DNA of 64,000 bases, from the NCBI RefSeq assembly GCF_003752025.1, contig NZ_RJKR01000008.1, forward strand, positions 186,001 to 250,000. Reading direction: 5' to 3'. Origin of the DNA: Curtobacterium sp. PhB115 (GTDB taxonomy: Bacteria; Actinomycetota; Actinomycetes; Actinomycetales; Microbacteriaceae). A program made the position numbers and the translations under genes. The notes below the pieces were generated by a model. It was not told where the DNA came from and ran no database searches. It saw only the letters and a program-made list of their open reading frames with translations. This document shows positions 11,134 to 31,991 of this stretch, piece by piece. Within the stretch, counting starts at the first letter, position 1; the number at the start of each line of letters is the position of its first letter.

Positions 11134-12357
11134 ATGTCGACTCTCGGAGAAGGTTCCGCGCCCGCAAGGCTCCCGACGCTCCGACACAGCGTCGGGTTCT
11201 GGGTCGTCGCCGTCGCGTTCACCGCGGTGATGGCGTACTCGACCGTCCCGACCCCGCTCTACGGACTGTACGAGGCAGCCGACGGCTTCCCGCCGTTCGT
11301 CGTGACGTTCGTGTTCGCGGCGTACGCAGTCGGTGTCGTCGCGGCGCTCTACTTCGCCGGTCACCTCAGCGACGTCGTCGGTCGCCGTCGGATGATCCTG
11401 ATCGCGGTGGGCGTCGAGATCGTGGCTGCGGTCGTGTTCCTCGTGTGGTCGGAACTCCCCGGCCTGCTCGTCGCTCGGTTCGTCAACGGCGCGGGGGTCG
11501 GGCTCCTGACCGCGACCGCGACCGCGCACATCAGCGAGCTGCGGTCCCGTGCCCGTCCGGACGAGGACCCGGCGAACGCCGTGACGGTCTCCGGGATCGC
11601 GAACCTCGGCGGCCTGGGGCTGGGGCCGCTCATCGGCGGGCTCTTCGCCGAGTTCCTGCCCGCCCCGCTGCTCTTGCCGCACCTGGTGTTCCTGGTGCTG
11701 TTCGTGGTGTCGCTGGTCGCGCTGCTCATGGTGCCGGAGACCGTCACGCGTCCGGCCGAGTCGCGTCCTTACCGTCCGCAGCGGATCTCCGTACCGCCGG
11801 CTGCGCGTCCGACGTTCGTCGCCGCGGGTGCCGCAGCGTTCTCGGCGTTCGCGGTCTTCGGGTTGTTCACGTCGCTCGCACCGACGTTCCTCGTCGTGTC
11901 GCTCCACGAGACCGACCGGTTGGTGGCCGGGGCGGTGTCGTTCTCGGTCTTCGCGGCGGCGTGCGTCGCACAGGTGCTGTTCCGTGGGTTCTCGATCCGC
12001 CGGCAACTGCGGCTGGTGCTCACGCTCATGCCGGCTGGCCTGGTGTTGCTGTCCGCCGGAGCGCTGCTCGCGTCGCTGCCCCTCTTCGCCGTCGGGGGAG
12101 TGGTCTCCGGTGCCGGTGTCGGCCTGCTCTTCCGGTGCGCGCTCGCTCGGGCCGGGGCCACGAGCAGTCCCGAGACGCGTGGCGAGGTCCTCGCAGCGGT
12201 GTTCCTCATCGGGTACGCGGGGCTGTCCGTCCCGGTGCTGCTGGTCGGGGCCGCGCTCTTGGTCTTCGCACCAGCGACGGTCCTGGTCGCGTTCGCCGCG
12301 CTCCTGCTGGTCGCGGTGCTCGTCTCCGCGACGCGGCTCCTGCACCAGGACCGGTGA
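11134..12357 (+). CDS. MFS transporter
   Basis: A 407-residue 12-helix MFS protein. It shows a loop 2/3 motif (GHLSDVVGRRRMILIAV), a helix-4 to helix-5 stretch FVNGAGVGLLTATATAHISEL and a conserved ISG-type motif near GIANLGGLGLGPLIGGLF. It resembles the branch annotated as YcaD or purine/drug efflux in actinobacteria; the substrate is unknown. The ATG at 11134 follows GGAGAGG; the frame upstream to 10987 is Arg-rich shadow. The last codons and the stop lie in an 18-bp tandem repeat. The gene lies between two LAL regulators. Confidence 0.85.
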   Translation: MSTLGEGSAPARLPTLRHSVGFWVVAVAFTAVMAYSTVPTPLYGLYEAADGFPPFVVTFVFAAYAVGVVAALYFAGHLSDVVGRRRMILIAVGVEIVAAVVFLVWSELPGLLVARFVNGAGVGLLTATATAHISELRSRARPDEDPANAVTVSGIANLGGLGLGPLIGGLFAEFLPAPLLLPHLVFLVLFVVSLVALLMVPETVTRPAESRPYRPQRISVPPAARPTFVAAGAAAFSAFAVFGLFTSLAPTFLVVSLHETDRLVAGAVSFSVFAAACVAQVLFRGFSIRRQLRLVLTLMPAGLVLLSAGALLASLPLFAVGGVVSGAGVGLLFRCALARAGATSSPETRGEVLAAVFLIGYAGLSVPVLLVGAALLVFAPATVLVAFAALLLVAVLVSATRLLHQDR

Positions 12358-12449
12358 ACGGCACCAGGACCGGTGAACGGCACCGGGACCGGTGAACGGC
12401 ACCGGGACCGGTGAACGGCACCAGGACCGGTGAACGGCACCAGCGCCGG
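12342..12449. repeat. 18-bp tandem repeat, six copies, spanning a stop codon
   Basis: Six consecutive 18-bp units of the form GCACCAGGACCGGTGAAC, starting at 12342, 12360, 12378, 12396, 12414 and 12432. Copies 3 and 4 have G for A at the seventh base and copy 6 has GC for GG in the middle. The first unit encodes the last residues of the MFS protein (HQDR) and includes its TGA stop. Each unit holds the palindrome ACCGGT. The array ends 27 bp before the convergent LAL regulator gene. Confidence 0.95.
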
Positions 12450-12476
12450 TGAACGAAACCGGTACCGGCACCACCC

Positions 12477-15083
12477 CTACTGCTGCCCGCCCAACCCGAG
12501 GAGCGCATCCCGCAAGCCCGCTCTGGTGGTCACGCCGAGCTTCGGGAACAGGCGGTACAGGTGACCGCTCACCGTGCGCGGTGACAGGTAGAGCTGGTTC
12601 GCGATCTGCTTGTTCGTGAACCCCGCCGCAGCCAGCGACGCGACACGACGTTCCTGCTCACTGAGCTCGACGGACGGGTCGACGGCCGTCGTGGACGGGA
12701 CACCGGCTCCGCCGGCGACGCGCAGCTCACCCTCGGCCCGGGTCCGCCAGCGCGTGGCGCCGAGGACCTCGAAGGTGCTCGCGGCGAGCCGGAACTGGGT
12801 CCGCGCCTCGAGCGAGTGCATGCTCCGTCGGAGCCAGTCGCCGTAGGCCAGCCGCACCCGCGCGACCTCGAACGGTGCGACCTCGCTCTCGACGGTCGCG
12901 AGTGCTTCCTCGAACAGGGACCGGGCATCGGCGCCGGTGTCGAGGACGGCTCTGGCGGCCTTGAGGATCATCGACCGCCGCGGGGTGGTCTGCGCGCCCT
13001 GCGCGCGTTCGGCCGCGACCACGAGGGAGACACCGTGGTCGGTCAGGCGGAGCCGGGCGGCGGACTCGACGGCGTCGAGCAGCTCGATCGGCCCGTAGCT
13101 GTTCTCCAACCACCTGCCCACGGCGGGCGGTCGCGTCGCTGAGCGGGCGTAGGCCTCCTCGAACCGTCCGGTGGCGACGTCGAGCGACGACCGGGCGTGG
13201 TCGGCCGCTCGGGCCACGAGCGGCGCACCGTGCTGGAGCGCCCACCGGGTGGCGCTGTCCGCCTTCTCGGTCGCGGCCTCGCTCTCGCCCTGCAGCGAGT
13301 GGATCAGGGCCTGCAGCGCTTCGGCCAGCGCGACGAGGGTCCCGGCGCCCCACTGCTCGGCGCGCTCGCGGACCTGTTCGAACGCCCGGCTCGCGGTCGT
13401 GAGGCGGCCGGCCTGGTACGCGGTGACGGCCTCGCGGCAGGTCGTGAAGTACCCGAGGAGCCCGTCGTTCCCGCTGCGGCGGAGCATCGCGTCGACGAGT
13501 TCGCGACGCGGGTCGGTCGCGTCGAGCAGCGTCCACGCGACGTGCAGCGCAACGGCCTTCCACGGTTGCGCGTCGGCCGCCGAGATCCGCGCTTCGCGGT
13601 ACATCGCGTCGCGATCGGCGTCGGGACGGTCGGGGTCGAGGCAGTCCTCGACGAGTCGCAGCACGGGGTCGAGGTCACGTTCCGCGGTGATCGCGAGTGC
13701 CTCGTCCCACCACGAACCGTCACCGCGGAGCCAGCAGAGCACGAACAGGGCGACGACGAGCACGTCGTCGTCGCCGTCGGGGCGTTCGAGTGCCGTGAGG
13801 ACGGCGCGCTTCCCGGCCCGGACGTCACCGGTCCGGAGCGCGCGGACGAACTCGAGCGCGCCGACGAGGGCGGGCTCCTGGCGTTCGTCGCGGAGCGCGG
13901 CCCGCTCGGCCTCGGCATCGACGAGTCCGAAGTCGCCGGTGAACGCCCCGATCGCCGCGGCACGTGCGCGGAGCCGGGCCCGACGGGTGTCGGACGAGGT
14001 CAGGCGGGCCGCCTCGAGGAGCGCGGTGGCGGCGTCGTCCGGGCGGCGGAGCCGGAAGGACTCGTCGACGAGGGCGATCAGCCGGGGGACGAGGCAGTCG
14101 TCGTGCCTGGGGGACGCGGACGCCTCTGCGAGTACCCGGAGCCGCTCCGGCACGCCCGTCGAGGCCGCGACCAGCGACCGGACACGGCGGAGCTCGGCCG
14201 GGGGTGTCGTCGCGAGGAGGTGCACCCGGACGAACGGGTCGCGGAACGCCGGTCCCGACGCACCCTCGACGACCAGCGGGCGCAGGCCCGCGTCGAGGAC
14301 CGGTGCCGCCTGTCCGTCCCATGCGACGTCGTCGGCGAACTCGACGGATGCGACCGCGAGGACCAGGGCCGCTTCGCGCGCTCCGTCGGAGAGCCCGTCC
14401 AACGCGTGGGCGGCAGCGTCGGTCGTGGGACCGAGGCGTGGGTAGGACGTCGGGAAGGACGCGGAACGATCGGCTGCTGGCGCGGACGACCACGCCGCGC
14501 CGACCGCGTGCAGGAGGAACGGGTTGCCCTCCGCCAGGCGGAGCAGCATCGCGATCCGGGTCGCGGGGAGATCGACCCGGTCGCGACGCAGCAGGTCCTC
14601 CGCGGCAGCGTCGTCGAGCGGACGCAGCGGCACGTACTGCAGGTCGATCCACCCGGGCACGCTGCGACGGTCCTCGACCGCGACGACGCACACGACGTCG
14701 GTCTCGTGCACCAGTCCGGTGAACACCGTCTGCAGCGTGCTCCTGGCACTCTCGGCGAGCGCGTCGAAATCGTCCACGAGCACCACGGTCCGGGCCGTGC
14801 GGTGTGCCTCGACGTCCTGCACGAGCGACAGCCACTGCCCGAGCGACGACGCGGCGATCACCGGGTCGCCGCCGGAGGACCGCAGCTCGACGACCCCGTG
14901 GCCGTCCGCGCGTGCTGCGGCCGCGATGCTGGCGAGCGCATGGGACTTGCCCGACCCGCGCGGCCCCTCGACGACCACGAACCGGTCGGTGGTGCTCGAC
15001 GAGGCGTGGATCGCCCGTCGGAAGACGTCGTCGTCGTGCAGGGTCCCGCGCATCGTTCGCGCGTCCGGGATGCTGATGCTCAT
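12477..15083 (-). CDS. LAL-type LuxR-family transcriptional regulator
   Basis: An 868-residue regulator with the same layout as the one at 8002-10878 but clearly different in sequence. The Walker A loop is EGPRGSGKSHALA (about residues 39-51), the Walker B strand is VVLVDDFDALA (about 100), then a long helical repeat region, then a C-terminal LuxR helix-turn-helix (LSEQERRVASLAAAGFTNKQIANQLYLSPRTVSGHL). A good AGGAGCC ribosome site precedes the ATG. It is divergent from the aquaporin-DyP-encapsulin operon across 157 bp, so it is the best candidate regulator of that operon; this is inference from position only. Confidence 0.87.
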   Translation of the reverse strand: MSISIPDARTMRGTLHDDDVFRRAIHASSSTTDRFVVVEGPRGSGKSHALASIAAAARADGHGVVELRSSGGDPVIAASSLGQWLSLVQDVEAHRTARTVVLVDDFDALAESARSTLQTVFTGLVHETDVVCVVAVEDRRSVPGWIDLQYVPLRPLDDAAAEDLLRRDRVDLPATRIAMLLRLAEGNPFLLHAVGAAWSSAPAADRSASFPTSYPRLGPTTDAAAHALDGLSDGAREAALVLAVASVEFADDVAWDGQAAPVLDAGLRPLVVEGASGPAFRDPFVRVHLLATTPPAELRRVRSLVAASTGVPERLRVLAEASASPRHDDCLVPRLIALVDESFRLRRPDDAATALLEAARLTSSDTRRARLRARAAAIGAFTGDFGLVDAEAERAALRDERQEPALVGALEFVRALRTGDVRAGKRAVLTALERPDGDDDVLVVALFVLCWLRGDGSWWDEALAITAERDLDPVLRLVEDCLDPDRPDADRDAMYREARISAADAQPWKAVALHVAWTLLDATDPRRELVDAMLRRSGNDGLLGYFTTCREAVTAYQAGRLTTASRAFEQVRERAEQWGAGTLVALAEALQALIHSLQGESEAATEKADSATRWALQHGAPLVARAADHARSSLDVATGRFEEAYARSATRPPAVGRWLENSYGPIELLDAVESAARLRLTDHGVSLVVAAERAQGAQTTPRRSMILKAARAVLDTGADARSLFEEALATVESEVAPFEVARVRLAYGDWLRRSMHSLEARTQFRLAASTFEVLGATRWRTRAEGELRVAGGAGVPSTTAVDPSVELSEQERRVASLAAAGFTNKQIANQLYLSPRTVSGHLYRLFPKLGVTTRAGLRDALLGLGGQQ

Positions 15084-15240
15084 CGATGGCTCCTGGTCTC
15101 GTCGGCTGCTCCGGACGCTAACGGGGTGACCGAGGGCGCCACATCCCCCGGGGACGGCAGCGGCATCCCCCGTCGGCCGAGTCGGCAGAGCGGGTCATCC
15201 GACTCAGGCGTGGGTGGTCCGGGGCTGCGACGCTCGGGAG

Positions 15241-16049
15241 ATGACCTTCCCGGACGCGCCGAGACCGGCGACCCCCACCCGCGCGGGCAAGTGGGCCGCG
15301 GAGACCGCCGGGACCTTCGTCCTCGTCCTCGGTCTGATCGGGACGGCCACGTTCTCCGCCACGGCCGACGCCGCCGCGGGCGCCGCAGCGGGCGGCGCCG
15401 ACTCCACTCCGGCCCCGGTCGGGATCCTCGGGGTCGCGATCGCCCTCGGTGTGAGCGTGATCGTCGGGGCGTGTGCGTTCGGCCCGGTCTCCGGAGGGCA
15501 CTTCAACCCCGCGGTCTCCGTCGGGCTCGCAGTGGCGGGACGGCTCCGGTGGCGCGAGGTGCCCGGCTACGTCGTGGCGCAGCTGGTCGGCGGACTCCTC
15601 GGGGCGGCGTGCGTCCTCGGTCTCGTGGCCGGACGTGGCAGCGGAGCGGTGCGGGAGCTCCTCGCCCGGGGCTTCGCGTCGAACGGGTACGGAGCGCACT
15701 CGCCGAGCGGTGTCGCCCTGCCGTCCGCGCTGCTGGTCGAGGTCGTCGGGACGGCGGTCTTCGTGTTCGTGATCCTCGGCGTCACCAACGCCCGATCAAC
15801 CCCCTCGATCGCCCCGATCCCGATCGGCATCACGTTGACGCTGCTGCTGCTCGTCGCGATCCCGATCGACAACGCGGGCTTCAACCCGGCGCGGTCCGTC
15901 GCGACGGCGGTGTTCGCCGGCGGGCCGTGGGCCGCGCAGCTCTGGCTCTTCGTGCTCGCGCCGCTGGCCGGTGCGGTCATCGCCGGAGCGACGAACCGGG
16001 TGCTCTTCGAGACCGCGGCGTCGGCTCCGGTGCCGCAGCGGGTGGAGCG

Positions 16050-16053
<4 letters not shown>
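15241..16053 (+). CDS. Aquaporin-family channel with non-standard selectivity filter
   Basis: A 270-residue MIP-family channel with six helices and two NPA half-helices: GGHFNPAVS (NPA 89-91) and GFNPARS (NPA 215-217). It aligns closely with AqpZ in the second half (GFASNGYG.HSP segment at 144-155). The four ar/R filter positions, Phe-His-Thr-Arg in AqpZ, are here Leu69, Leu203, Ala212 and Arg218, which should make a wider, less polar pore than a strict water channel. It is first gene of the aquaporin-DyP-encapsulin operon; the stop overlaps the DyP start (ATGA). Carrying hydrogen peroxide for the peroxidase is a reasonable but unproven idea. Confidence 0.9.
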
Positions 16054-17167
<1,114 letters not shown>

Positions 17168-17171
<4 letters not shown>

Positions 17172-18100
17172 ACCACCTCCTCCGAGAACTCGCACCGTTC
17201 GGCGACGACGCCTGGGCGATGCTCGATGCCGAGGCACGCGACCGGCTCGTCCCCGCCCTGACCGCACGCCGGGTGGTCGACTTCGACGGCCCCCGCGGCT
17301 GGCAGTACTCCGCCGTCGACCTGGGCCGGACCGAGCCCGTGACCGGGCCCGACAGCCGGACCGAGCCCGTGACCGGGCCCGACAGCCGGACCGAGCCCGT
17401 GACCGGGCCCGACAGCCGGACCGAGCCCGCGACCGGGGCCGAGACCCGGACCGAGCCCGCGACCGCCAGCACCGCCAGCACCGCCGGCATCGTCGCCCGA
17501 CGCCGCAGGGTCCTGCCCCTCTGCGAGGTCCGCGCGACGTTCACGGTCCGCCTCGAGGAGATGGTCGACTTCTCCCGCGGCGCCACCGACGTGGACCTGA
17601 CCGACCTCGACCAGGCGGCTCTGCGGCTCGCGGCGCACGAGAACCGGGCCACGCTCCGCGGCTGGACCGAGGCCGGCATCACCGGTGTCGGTGCGGCTTC
17701 GACGCAGCGGTCCCAGACCCACGACGGCACTCCGGAGTCGTTCCGCACGGCGGTCACCGCGGCCGTCGCGGCACTGCGCGACGCCGGCGTCGCCGGGCCG
17801 TACGCGCTCGCCTGTGGGCCCGTCGACTGGGCGGAGATCGTCGAGACCGACGACGGCGGGTACCCGCTCCGCAAGCAGCTCGAGGGCATCACCGGCGGCG
17901 ACGTCGAGCGCACCCCCGGCATCGACGAGTCCGTGCTGATCAGTCAGCGCGGCGGTGACTTCGTGCTCACCGTCGGCGAGGACCTCAGCCTCGGGTACCT
18001 GCACCACGACGCCGACGCGGTGACCCTCTACGTCGAGGAGTCGTTCGCCTTCCGGGTGAACACCCCGGAAGCCGCAGTGGTCCTGCGCCGAGCGCTCTGA
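17168..18100 (+). CDS. enc: Encapsulin shell protein with repeat-expanded E-loop
   Basis: A 310-residue family 1 encapsulin (HK97-fold nanocompartment shell, linocin M18 type). Diagnostic segments are MNHLLRELAPFGDDAWAMLD at the start, RRVVDFDGPRGWQYSAVDLG (35-53), VLPLCEVRATF (115-125), GPYALACGPVDW, YPLRKQLEGI and the end RGGDFVLTVGEDLSLGYL / VTLYVEESFAFRVNTPEAAVVL. Typical family members have about 265 residues. The extra length lies at residues 54-103, five copies of a 10-residue RTEPVTGPDS-like unit placed where other encapsulins have the E-loop that clasps the neighbouring subunit. AAGGA ribosome site at 17154-17158; start overlaps the DyP stop. The last 73 bp overlap the convergent VOC gene. 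Confidence 0.95.
17327..17476. repeat. 30-bp coding tandem repeat in encapsulin E-loop
   Basis: Five in-frame 30-bp units encode RTEPVTGPDS three times exactly (54-83), then RTEPATGAET (84-93) and RTEPATAST (94-102). The first three units are identical at DNA level; the last two have diverged, the usual sign of recent expansion at one end. The encoded peptide is Pro/Thr/acidic and probably unstructured. Confidence 0.95.
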
Positions 18101-18501
18101 CGGCCGGCGCTCGACGGGACGACCACCGGGGTGAACCGGTCGCGTCGTGCCGTCACGAGCACGGTGTTCGCCCACGGGTCGGCGATCGGCAGTGCCGACC
18201 GCACCGCCCGCCCGGCCGGGGCGGTGCTCTGCCGCAGCACCGGGTCGAGCGTGTGCCGCAGGGTGGTCACGTGTGCCTCTTCGGCGCCCGGACCGCTGAG
18301 GACCACGAGCCGGGTGCGGGCGCGCCCGACCTCTGCGCCGGCGAGGTGGACCGCGGCCAGGTCGCCGGAGCGGACGAAGCGGACCGCGCGCAGCTGCGTC
18401 AGGTGCGCCCACCACGTGACAGCCGCGGCGATGTCCGCCACCACGACGGTCTGCACCCCGGTCGGCCGGAGCGCGACGGCTGGTGTCCTGGCCACGGTCA
18501 T
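18028..18501 (-). CDS. VOC-like (glyoxalase fold) protein
   Basis: A 157-residue protein with the vicinal-oxygen-chelate layout: VQTVVVADIAAAVTWWAHL near residue 17 (the 'V.D...A..FY..vLG' helix), VHLAGAEV strand, and IADPWANTVLV near residue 110, equivalent to 'DP.GN...l'. Metal ligands are not obvious, so catalysis is uncertain. It starts inside the SnoaL-like gene stop (ATG 18501, TGA 18500-18498). Its 3' end runs 73 bp into the encapsulin gene on the other strand, so the last 20-30 residues (Arg/Ser-rich) may be non-essential. Confidence 0.6.
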   Translation of the reverse strand: MTVARTPAVALRPTGVQTVVVADIAAAVTWWAHLTQLRAVRFVRSGDLAAVHLAGAEVGRARTRLVVLSGPGAEEAHVTTLRHTLDPVLRQSTAPAGRAVRSALPIADPWANTVLVTARRDRFTPVVVPSSAGRQSARRRTTAASGVFTRKANDSST

Positions 18502-18884
18502 CCCTGCAGCTGTCGCCAGCTGGTGATCTGGAAGTGGTGCACCTCGAAGCAGGCGAGGCTCATCAGGGTGCGTTCGTCCTCGCCGGGGAAGCGGATCCGG
18601 AGCGTCTGGTCGAGCAGGACCATCGAGCCGCTCGCCGCCACCCGGTTCGGGACGATCTCGAACAGCTCGAAGCTCTCCAGGATGGCCTGGCACAGGCGCA
18701 GCACCTCGGTGCGGCCGTGCACGCGGCTGCAGGTGCTCGGCTGGTAGACGACGTCCGCGTCCAGGAACGGCACGAGCTGCTCGACTTCCCGGGCCCGGAA
18801 GTTGTCGAGGAAGTCGCGGACGACGAGTTCGTTCTCGATCGACGCGGTCATCTTCGCGACGGCGTCGTCAATGGGTTCCAACAT
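18498..18884 (-). CDS. SnoaL-like / NTF2-fold protein
   Basis: A 128-residue protein of the SnoaL/ketosteroid-isomerase-like fold: VVRDFLDNFRAREVEQLVPFLDADVVYQPS is the usual helix pair leading into the cone-shaped pocket, with CQAILESFELFEIVPNRV and strand pairs after it (MVLLDQTLRIRF, CFEVHHFQITSWRQL). It resembles limonene-epoxide-hydrolase-like members, but the catalytic Asp/Arg set cannot be confirmed. A GGAGGGAAG ribosome site precedes the ATG at 18884. The gene begins 17 bp inside the lipoprotein gene and overlaps the VOC gene by 4 bp, so the three form one operon. Confidence 0.75.
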   Translation of the reverse strand: MLEPIDDAVAKMTASIENELVVRDFLDNFRAREVEQLVPFLDADVVYQPSTCSRVHGRTEVLRLCQAILESFELFEIVPNRVAASGSMVLLDQTLRIRFPGEDERTLMSLACFEVHHFQITSWRQLQG

Positions 18885-19485
18885 GGTGCTTCCCTCCGGG
18901 ATCGGTGACGAGGTCGGTGACGAGGTCGGTGACGGGGTCGGTGACGGGATCGGTGACGGTGATGGTGACGGTCGTGGCGCCACGACGGGCGACCGGCGCC
19001 GCAGCGGGCGCGGTCGGCAGCAGGTCCGTGTACTCCGGCAGCAGCCCGTTCAGCACCGGGACCTCGAGCGTCCGTCCGGCCCGTCCGCCGGCGTCGACGA
19101 ACACCCGCAGCAGAGCCCCGGGCCGGGCGTCCGTGTCCTCCAGGAGCATCTGCTCGTCGCCGGGCCTGGTGCCCCGGAAGACGGTCGCCCCGGGGCGGAC
19201 GGGCAGGACCTGCGTGACGTGTCCGACGGTCGTCGGGTACGAGAACCGGACGTCCGCCTGGCGTTCGCCGGCGTTCAGCACGGTCATGCTCAGGCTCACC
19301 ACGTCGCCGTCCCGGGTCAGCGCGATCGCGTTCCGGACCTCGACGTGGCCGACGTCCGCGTTCGTGCCGTTCACGACCTGCTTGATGTCCTTCGTCTCCT
19401 GCGGGGTCGTGAACGTGCAGCCGCCGAGTGCGGCGGCGAGCACCGCCACCGTGACGGCGGACGCGATGCGCATGGTGCGTTCCAC
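18868..19485 (-). CDS. Secreted lipoprotein with repeat tail
   Basis: A 205-residue lipoprotein. The signal peptide ends in the lipobox LAAALGGC (Cys at about residue 23). The mature part has a beta-sandwich pattern (VGHVEVRNAIAL, VVSLSMTVLNAGERQADVRFSY, LRVFVDAGG, VPVLNGLLPEYTDLLPT). This is the pattern of a common actinobacterial lipoprotein often misnamed 'DNA modification methylase'; the real role is unknown. GTG 19485 follows an AAGGAG site by 5 nt and is preferred over ATG 19473. The tail (VTDPVTDPVTDLVTDLVTDP) comes from a 12-bp tandem repeat, and the gene's last 17 bp are the start of the SnoaL-like gene. Confidence 0.8.
   Translation of the reverse strand: MERTMRIASAVTVAVLAAALGGCTFTTPQETKDIKQVVNGTNADVGHVEVRNAIALTRDGDVVSLSMTVLNAGERQADVRFSYPTTVGHVTQVLPVRPGATVFRGTRPGDEQMLLEDTDARPGALLRVFVDAGGRAGRTLEVPVLNGLLPEYTDLLPTAPAAAPVARRGATTVTITVTDPVTDPVTDLVTDLVTDPGGKHHVGTH
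18901..18972. repeat. 12-bp coding tandem repeat
   Basis: Six 12-bp units of the form GTCGGTGACGAG (plus strand), with changes at three positions, encode the Val-Thr-Asp-Pro/Leu tail of the minus-strand lipoprotein. The array lies just upstream of the SnoaL-like ribosome site, so its length also sets the spacing between the two genes. Confidence 0.9.
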
Positions 19486-31438: not shown

Positions 31439-31553
31439 CTCGGGCGGCCCGCCGGACGCGCCCCGTGCCTCCCGGCCGCGCGGGCCCGCCCCGCCCACCC
31501 GCGCTCCGCCCCCGCCCGCCCGTGCGCGGGCCCGTGCCCGCGCCCGCGCGCCC
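31439..31553. other. GC-only low-complexity spacer
   Basis: About 115 bp of nearly pure G/C with runs of CCCGCC and GTGCGCGGGCC between the TANGO2-like gene and the 144-bp repeat array. No gene or clear hairpin of unique design. Confidence 0.5.
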
Positions 31554-31985
31554 CGCAGTGTGCGAGGTTCCGCGCACTGTGCGACCCCGAAGTCGTCCCA
31601 CCGTGCACGAAACCTCGCACGGTACGGAACCGCCCCTCGCACCGTGCGACTTCGGGCGAACCGCCCCTCGCACCGTGCGACCCCGCGCTGCGCGCCTCGC
31701 AGTGTGCGAGGTTCCGCGCACCGTGCGGGGCCGAGTCGTCCCACCGTGCACGAAACCTCGCACCGTGCGGAACCACACCTCGCACCGTGCGACCCCGGCC
31801 GAACCGCCCCTCGCACCGTGCGACCCCGCGCTCCGCGCCCCCGCAGTGTGCGAGGTTCCGCGCACTGTGCGGCTCCGATGCCGTCGCACCGTGCACGAAA
31901 CCTCGCACGGTACGGAACCGCCCCTCGCACCGTGCGACCTCGGGGGAACTACACCCCGCACCGTGCGACCCCGCGCCGCGCGGCC
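31554..31985. repeat. Three tandem 144-bp intergenic units
   Basis: Three units begin with CGCAGTGTGCGAGGTTCCGC at 31554, 31698 and 31842, an exact 144-bp period. Each unit holds several copies of the palindrome CGCACCGTGCG (or the CGCACTGTGCG variant) and an inverted pair GTGCGAGGTT ... AACCTCGCAC, so every unit can fold into nested hairpins. The array fills the spacer between the ends of two convergent genes and stops 7 bp before the SDR stop codon. Confidence 0.95.
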
Positions 31986-31991
31986 CCGCGC

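Follow-up and report, generated by a model that had tools for sequence, protein, structure and literature searches.

The encapsulin gene of Curtobacterium sp. PhB115 carries a tandem array of five 10-residue units within its E-loop. We read it, with a probability of roughly 60%, as a DyP-associated family 1 encapsulin in which in-frame self-duplication has extended the E-loop, giving a flexible loop tolerated by a shell that still assembles. The array is real and, within our survey, unique. The gene lies in a window of 64,000 nucleotides, the whole stretch of DNA that was analysed, and all positions refer to this window.

Repeat array in the encapsulin gene

The open reading frame at 17168-18100 on the forward strand codes for a 310-residue family 1 encapsulin, which belongs to the family by its match to PF04454 (Linocin_M18) at 226 bits (cut-off 24.3) and whose best match among PDB shells has an E value of 3e-61. 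The features of the gene are as follows.

17168-18100, forward strand: family 1 encapsulin shell protein, 310 residues (PF04454 Linocin_M18; PDB shells)
17327-17476, forward strand: five tandem units of 30 bp (10 residues), residues 54-103, in the E-loop (sequence, TRF)
17348-17473, forward strand: net 42-residue insertion relative to the orthologue of G055, residues 61-102, its placement within the repeat being ambiguous (alignments)
17486-17533, forward strand: downstream E-loop strands, residues 107-122 (GIVARRRRVLPLCEVR), by an offset of 43 to T. maritima

The units read, in order, RTEPVTGPDS three times, RTEPATGAET and RTEPATASTA. Units 1 to 3 are the same at the DNA level; set against unit 1, 4 of 30 bases are changed in unit 4 and 9 of 30 in unit 5. 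The sequence-only reading had reported five such repeats at these residues, flanked by SAVDLG and VLPLCEVRATF, and both the repeats and the flanks are exactly as it described. An independent TRF call covers 17325-17465 (period 30, 4.7 copies, 96% matches, score 247). Self-match at period 30 is 0.90 over 120 positions and the maximum in 1000 codon shuffles of the reading frame is 0.54, so the array is not a chance arrangement. The 30-bp period is divisible by 3. Relative to the repeat-free Curtobacterium orthologue G055 (268 residues) the protein is longer by 42 residues, in agreement with the earlier estimate of about 40 extra residues.

The array is made up to 84% of P, T, S, G, E, D and A and has no aromatic residues, a composition that fits disorder. 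With the charge-hydropathy boundary formula for disorder, the array scores 0.37 against a boundary of 0.442 and falls on the disordered side, composition alone being no proof of disorder, and the remainder of the protein (0.488 against 0.433) does not. The description of the extra residues as Pro/Thr/acidic holds for the array, whose net charge is -4, but the terminal ARRRR leaves the 61-residue loop as a whole neutral.

Location of the array within the E-loop

A repeat-free orthologue (locus L003, Curtobacterium sp. VKM Ac-1376) aligns in a single stretch to all 27 matched PDB sequences, one of which (2e0z) stops short of the loop. The window protein, on the other hand, aligns to 23 of 26 PDB sequences in two stretches that omit the array segment. 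By these alignments the array is within the E-loop, as had been proposed; the contrary case, in which the repeats lie outside it, was checked in the same way and does not hold at the sequence level. The normal E-loop length had been put at about 20 residues and was measured as about 18 (17-19 in 25 of 25 shells).

Past the array, residue numbers run 43 ahead of those in the encapsulin of T. maritima, a family 1 shell with a ferritin-like cargo (query 113-307 equals chain 70-264). In that encapsulin, E-loop strand 66-70 pairs with strand 75-79 of another subunit in an intermolecular sheet (PMC8086157). Carried over by this offset, the strands fall on residues 109-113 (VARRR) and 118-122 (LCEVR) of the window protein. 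The array accordingly lies ahead of the sheet-forming strand, towards the hairpin tip. The sheet-forming strands are identical to those of G055 except for V109 (T in G055), and the residues upstream of the array are also retained. An AlphaFold model built from two sequences had a mean pLDDT of 33.2 and a pTM of 0.20 and was discarded.

At its hairpin tip every subunit would bear some 42 additional residues as a flexible loop of Pro/Thr/acidic character, probably at the outer face of the shell. As the sheet-forming strands are kept, assembly of the shell would still be expected, and the extra loop is probably tolerated. The surface position, the disorder and any effect on the pores are what we infer for this loop; a function for it is possible and unsupported.

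Distribution among related genomes

On direct alignment the E-loop segment has 61 residues here and 17-19 in all 25 other shells measured. Of the 26 shells taken for this alignment, one, L104, was not recovered by tblastn and is excluded from the count; its profile match spans 256 codons. According to PMC8346489, a shorter E-loop is what family 1 shells "generally appear" to have, a tendency and not a criterion, from which the present loop departs. Encapsulin was found in 7 of 66 Curtobacterium genomes (one genome per species), and the repeats are absent from all six other encapsulins of the genus. In the wider samples it was found in 32 of 398 (family), 34 of 396 (order) and 39 of 396 (phylum) genomes. 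The matches come from 105 distinct genomes, or 103 once G000, the genome under study, and G980, a partial match below the cut-off, are left out. A comparable insertion was found in none of these 103 other genomes, the six Curtobacterium included, whose matches exceed the cut-off and cover the loop (in G688 the match begins at profile position 22 and the loop is still covered). All their matches are unbroken, the longest running over 256 codons (253 profile positions at most), as against 294 codons here. Beyond its own phylum the survey comprises the PDB shells and the plasmid matches listed (20 of 63); in these plasmid matches the matched stretch is 774-792 bases, as expected without an insertion. 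Three scans of viral contigs gave no relative. In the open-access literature matches listed, as far as their excerpts show, no family 1 shell is described with a tandem-repeat E-loop.

Origin of the array

The segment from LG to VLPL reads RTDPVTGGAGDGITARRRR in G055, RTDAVTGGVADGITARRRR in G007 and G008 and RTEPVSATVTGIAARRRR in G057, with 17-residue forms in G034 and G009. The native first strand of this segment is RTDPVTG in G055, RTDAVTG in G007 and G008 and RTEPVS in G057, and unit 1 of the array starts with its counterpart RTEPVTG. Since unit 1 opens with the native strand, the array looks like a duplicate of resident loop sequence. Slippage or unequal recombination probably produced an in-frame tandem duplication of the E-loop's own first-strand segment, a frame-keeping and probably recent expansion, and tandem arrays abound in this genome. 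The 150-bp array has a single further match in the genome (58 bp at 79%), unlike what a copied mobile repeat would show, and an origin from a dispersed element is disfavoured.

TRF arrays with a score of at least 80 number 59 and 58 per 400 kb in two samples of this genome, against 19 in G055, 23 in G008, 38 in G007 and 50 in G009, the samples being chosen contig stretches and not random ones. For arrays of at least 3 copies and a period of at least 9, the counts are 24 and 22 here, 6 in G055, 10 in G008, 12 in G007 and 24 in G009. The window itself, with 11 arrays, is close to the genome average. G009 combines a normal loop with array counts nearly equal or equal to those found here; array richness therefore does not explain the expansion, and as a sole cause it is weakened. 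Three other arrays of the window were seen in passing. A 12-bp array with TDPV-type repeats (18897-18971) codes for the C-terminus of a lipoprotein-like minus-strand reading frame. A 19-bp tandem array (12342-12468) lies just beyond the minus-strand reading frame 12477-15083 and has a stop in each plus-strand frame. In a 145-bp repeat array (31537-31989) the palindrome TCGCACCGTGCGA occurs five times, where shuffles give an expectation of 0; palindrome-like letters occur in arrays elsewhere in the genome, and TCGCACCGTGCGA is perhaps a dispersed palindromic element.

Overall, the array is best read as the outcome of an ordinary mutational process in an unusual place. It would be young, weakly constrained, and tolerated rather than essential.

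Cargo gene and genomic neighbourhood

The genes upstream of the encapsulin and the parts of the likely cargo are listed here.

15214-16053, forward strand: aquaporin (MIP) gene, start codon uncertain (PF00230, E value 6e-35)
16050-17171, forward strand: DyP-type peroxidase, likely cargo (PF20628 and PF04261 on 16128-17171; frame and junction inspected)
17038-17124, forward strand: cargo-linker array of 6-bp type (TRF, 15 copies, 72% matches, score 79), coding for NTDTDTDTDTDTDRDRNTDTDRHRDD as part of a longer run
17124-17168, forward strand: cargo C-terminus GLGIGSLRRTEGHTS with the targeting-peptide-like LGIGSL (motif present in relatives)

The stop of the aquaporin gene overlaps the DyP start and the stop of DyP overlaps the encapsulin start, each as ATGA. 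LGIGSL is a motif that we take to be the encapsulin targeting peptide, and LG[IL]GSL is present at the cargo end in 6 of 6 Curtobacterium relatives; with DyP as the likely dedicated cargo and this putative C-terminal targeting peptide, the locus has the organisation of a cargo operon. The distance from TFFAP to LG[IL]GSL is 51 here and 29-60 in the six relatives. From this spread, the cargo linker varies freely in length; the shell loop, this genome aside, does not. Among 20 loci taken with about 2 kb of sequence ahead of the encapsulin, 15 have DyP there. At the remaining five (L088, L090, L093, L100 and L104) no DyP relative was seen within about 2 kb, and there may be another cargo there.

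A tblastn search for the aquaporin found none at the other six encapsulin loci of Curtobacterium (12 kb apiece), and its top match elsewhere in the genus is 58%. A 70% identical aquaporin is present upstream of DyP-encapsulin in L087, from another Microbacteriaceae genus (1 of 20 loci, about 2 kb upstream). The aquaporin might pass peroxide to DyP. Promoter and terminator scans of 15050-18700 gave nothing.

Selection and alternative explanations

NG86 estimates of dN/dS over the orthologue-aligned codons are 0.106/0.592 (about 0.18) against G055, 0.127/0.579 (about 0.22) against G007, 0.144/0.674 (about 0.21) against G034 and 0.269/0.640 (about 0.42) against G057. Judged from these codons, the encapsulin is under purifying selection across the genus. 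Such selection, and the intact frames of shell and cargo, are also what one would look for if the array were a selected surface or pore-lining brush, a Pro/Thr/acidic loop kept because it alters the shell's flux, its stability or its binding to partners. There is a precedent in family 2B, where E-loop insertions are positioned over the two-fold pores, blocking them in part (PMC12407261), and retention of the frame would be equally expected under selection. However, the array is shared by 0 of 6 Curtobacterium orthologues, arrays are common in this genome, and all four base differences between units 1 and 4 change the amino acid, although these are very few sites. We therefore regard a selected brush as unlikely.

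An expansion that does harm, in which the long loop disturbs dimerisation or the assembly state and the shell is altered or fails, appears less probable again. In the M. tuberculosis shell, E-loop pairing is predicted to be the strongest of the contacts (PMC11830004), and the system described here looks dispensable, with the shell gene in few genomes of the genus and, in G008 (L018), in-frame stops in both the DyP and the encapsulin (codon 45) frames; relatives hold intact copies. These stops indicate that the DyP-encapsulin system can be lost in the genus. Against harm are the nearly unchanged sheet-forming strands and the low dN/dS relative to G055, which is averaged over the whole divergence and says little about the time after the expansion.

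A more speculative variant, to which we give a slim chance, is an E-loop that is ambiguous in register and tunable in length. Every unit repeats the native first strand (RTEPxT), so any of the five copies could pair with GIVARRRR. Loops of mixed size could then occur within a shell, copy number would be an evolvable dial, and the loop would be paired with the cargo-linker array; if so, copy number could tune shell contacts or pores over evolution. Least probable is a copy-number artefact of assembly, a real array with a wrong count of identical units, for although there are three identical 30-bp units in a 13-contig assembly, the identical part is just 90 bp inside a 298-kb contig, units 4 and 5 are diverged and not simple duplicates, and the frame is kept.

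Comparison with known encapsulin systems

The tolerated self-duplication that we favour can be set against three known cases. With the family 1 DyP encapsulins (e.g. the mycobacterial and Klebsiella PDB shells) the window locus shares PF04454, a DyP gene directly upstream and a LGIGSL-type cargo tail. The stop/start overlap of DyP and encapsulin is also that of M. tuberculosis (PMC11676171). The difference is the E-loop, 61 residues with tandem repeats as against 17-19. With family 2B it shares an insertion within the E-loop; there the inserted part folds as a cyclic-nucleotide-binding-like domain and has a linker for which disorder is predicted (PMC8346489, PMC12407261). Here the shell is of family 1 and its insert a low-complexity array. 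The protein has neither such a domain nor any second Pfam domain, PF04454 being the sole match at an E-value cut-off of 0.001.

The closest engineered case is M. xanthus EncA with a 20-mer inserted at G58/V59, in which particles still form; clefts around the three-fold axes show additional density, and the fraction of T=3 particles is lower (PMC11308774). As particle types were altered, full tolerance is not assured, and the result also lends some weight to a damaging expansion. By the N-terminal offset (query 10 equals chain 11, a gapless stretch being assumed), G58/V59 corresponds to about window residues 57/58, roughly the same part of the E-loop. The EncA insert is man-made and of 20 residues, whereas the one described here is natural, loop-derived and of 42 residues, a natural counterpart of engineered loop insertions in encapsulin shells. 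Because the family 1 E-loop is near-constant in the surveyed shells and makes a main shell contact, this insertion offers a ready test of the loop's tolerance, and the array suggests a natural display site on the encapsulin shell.
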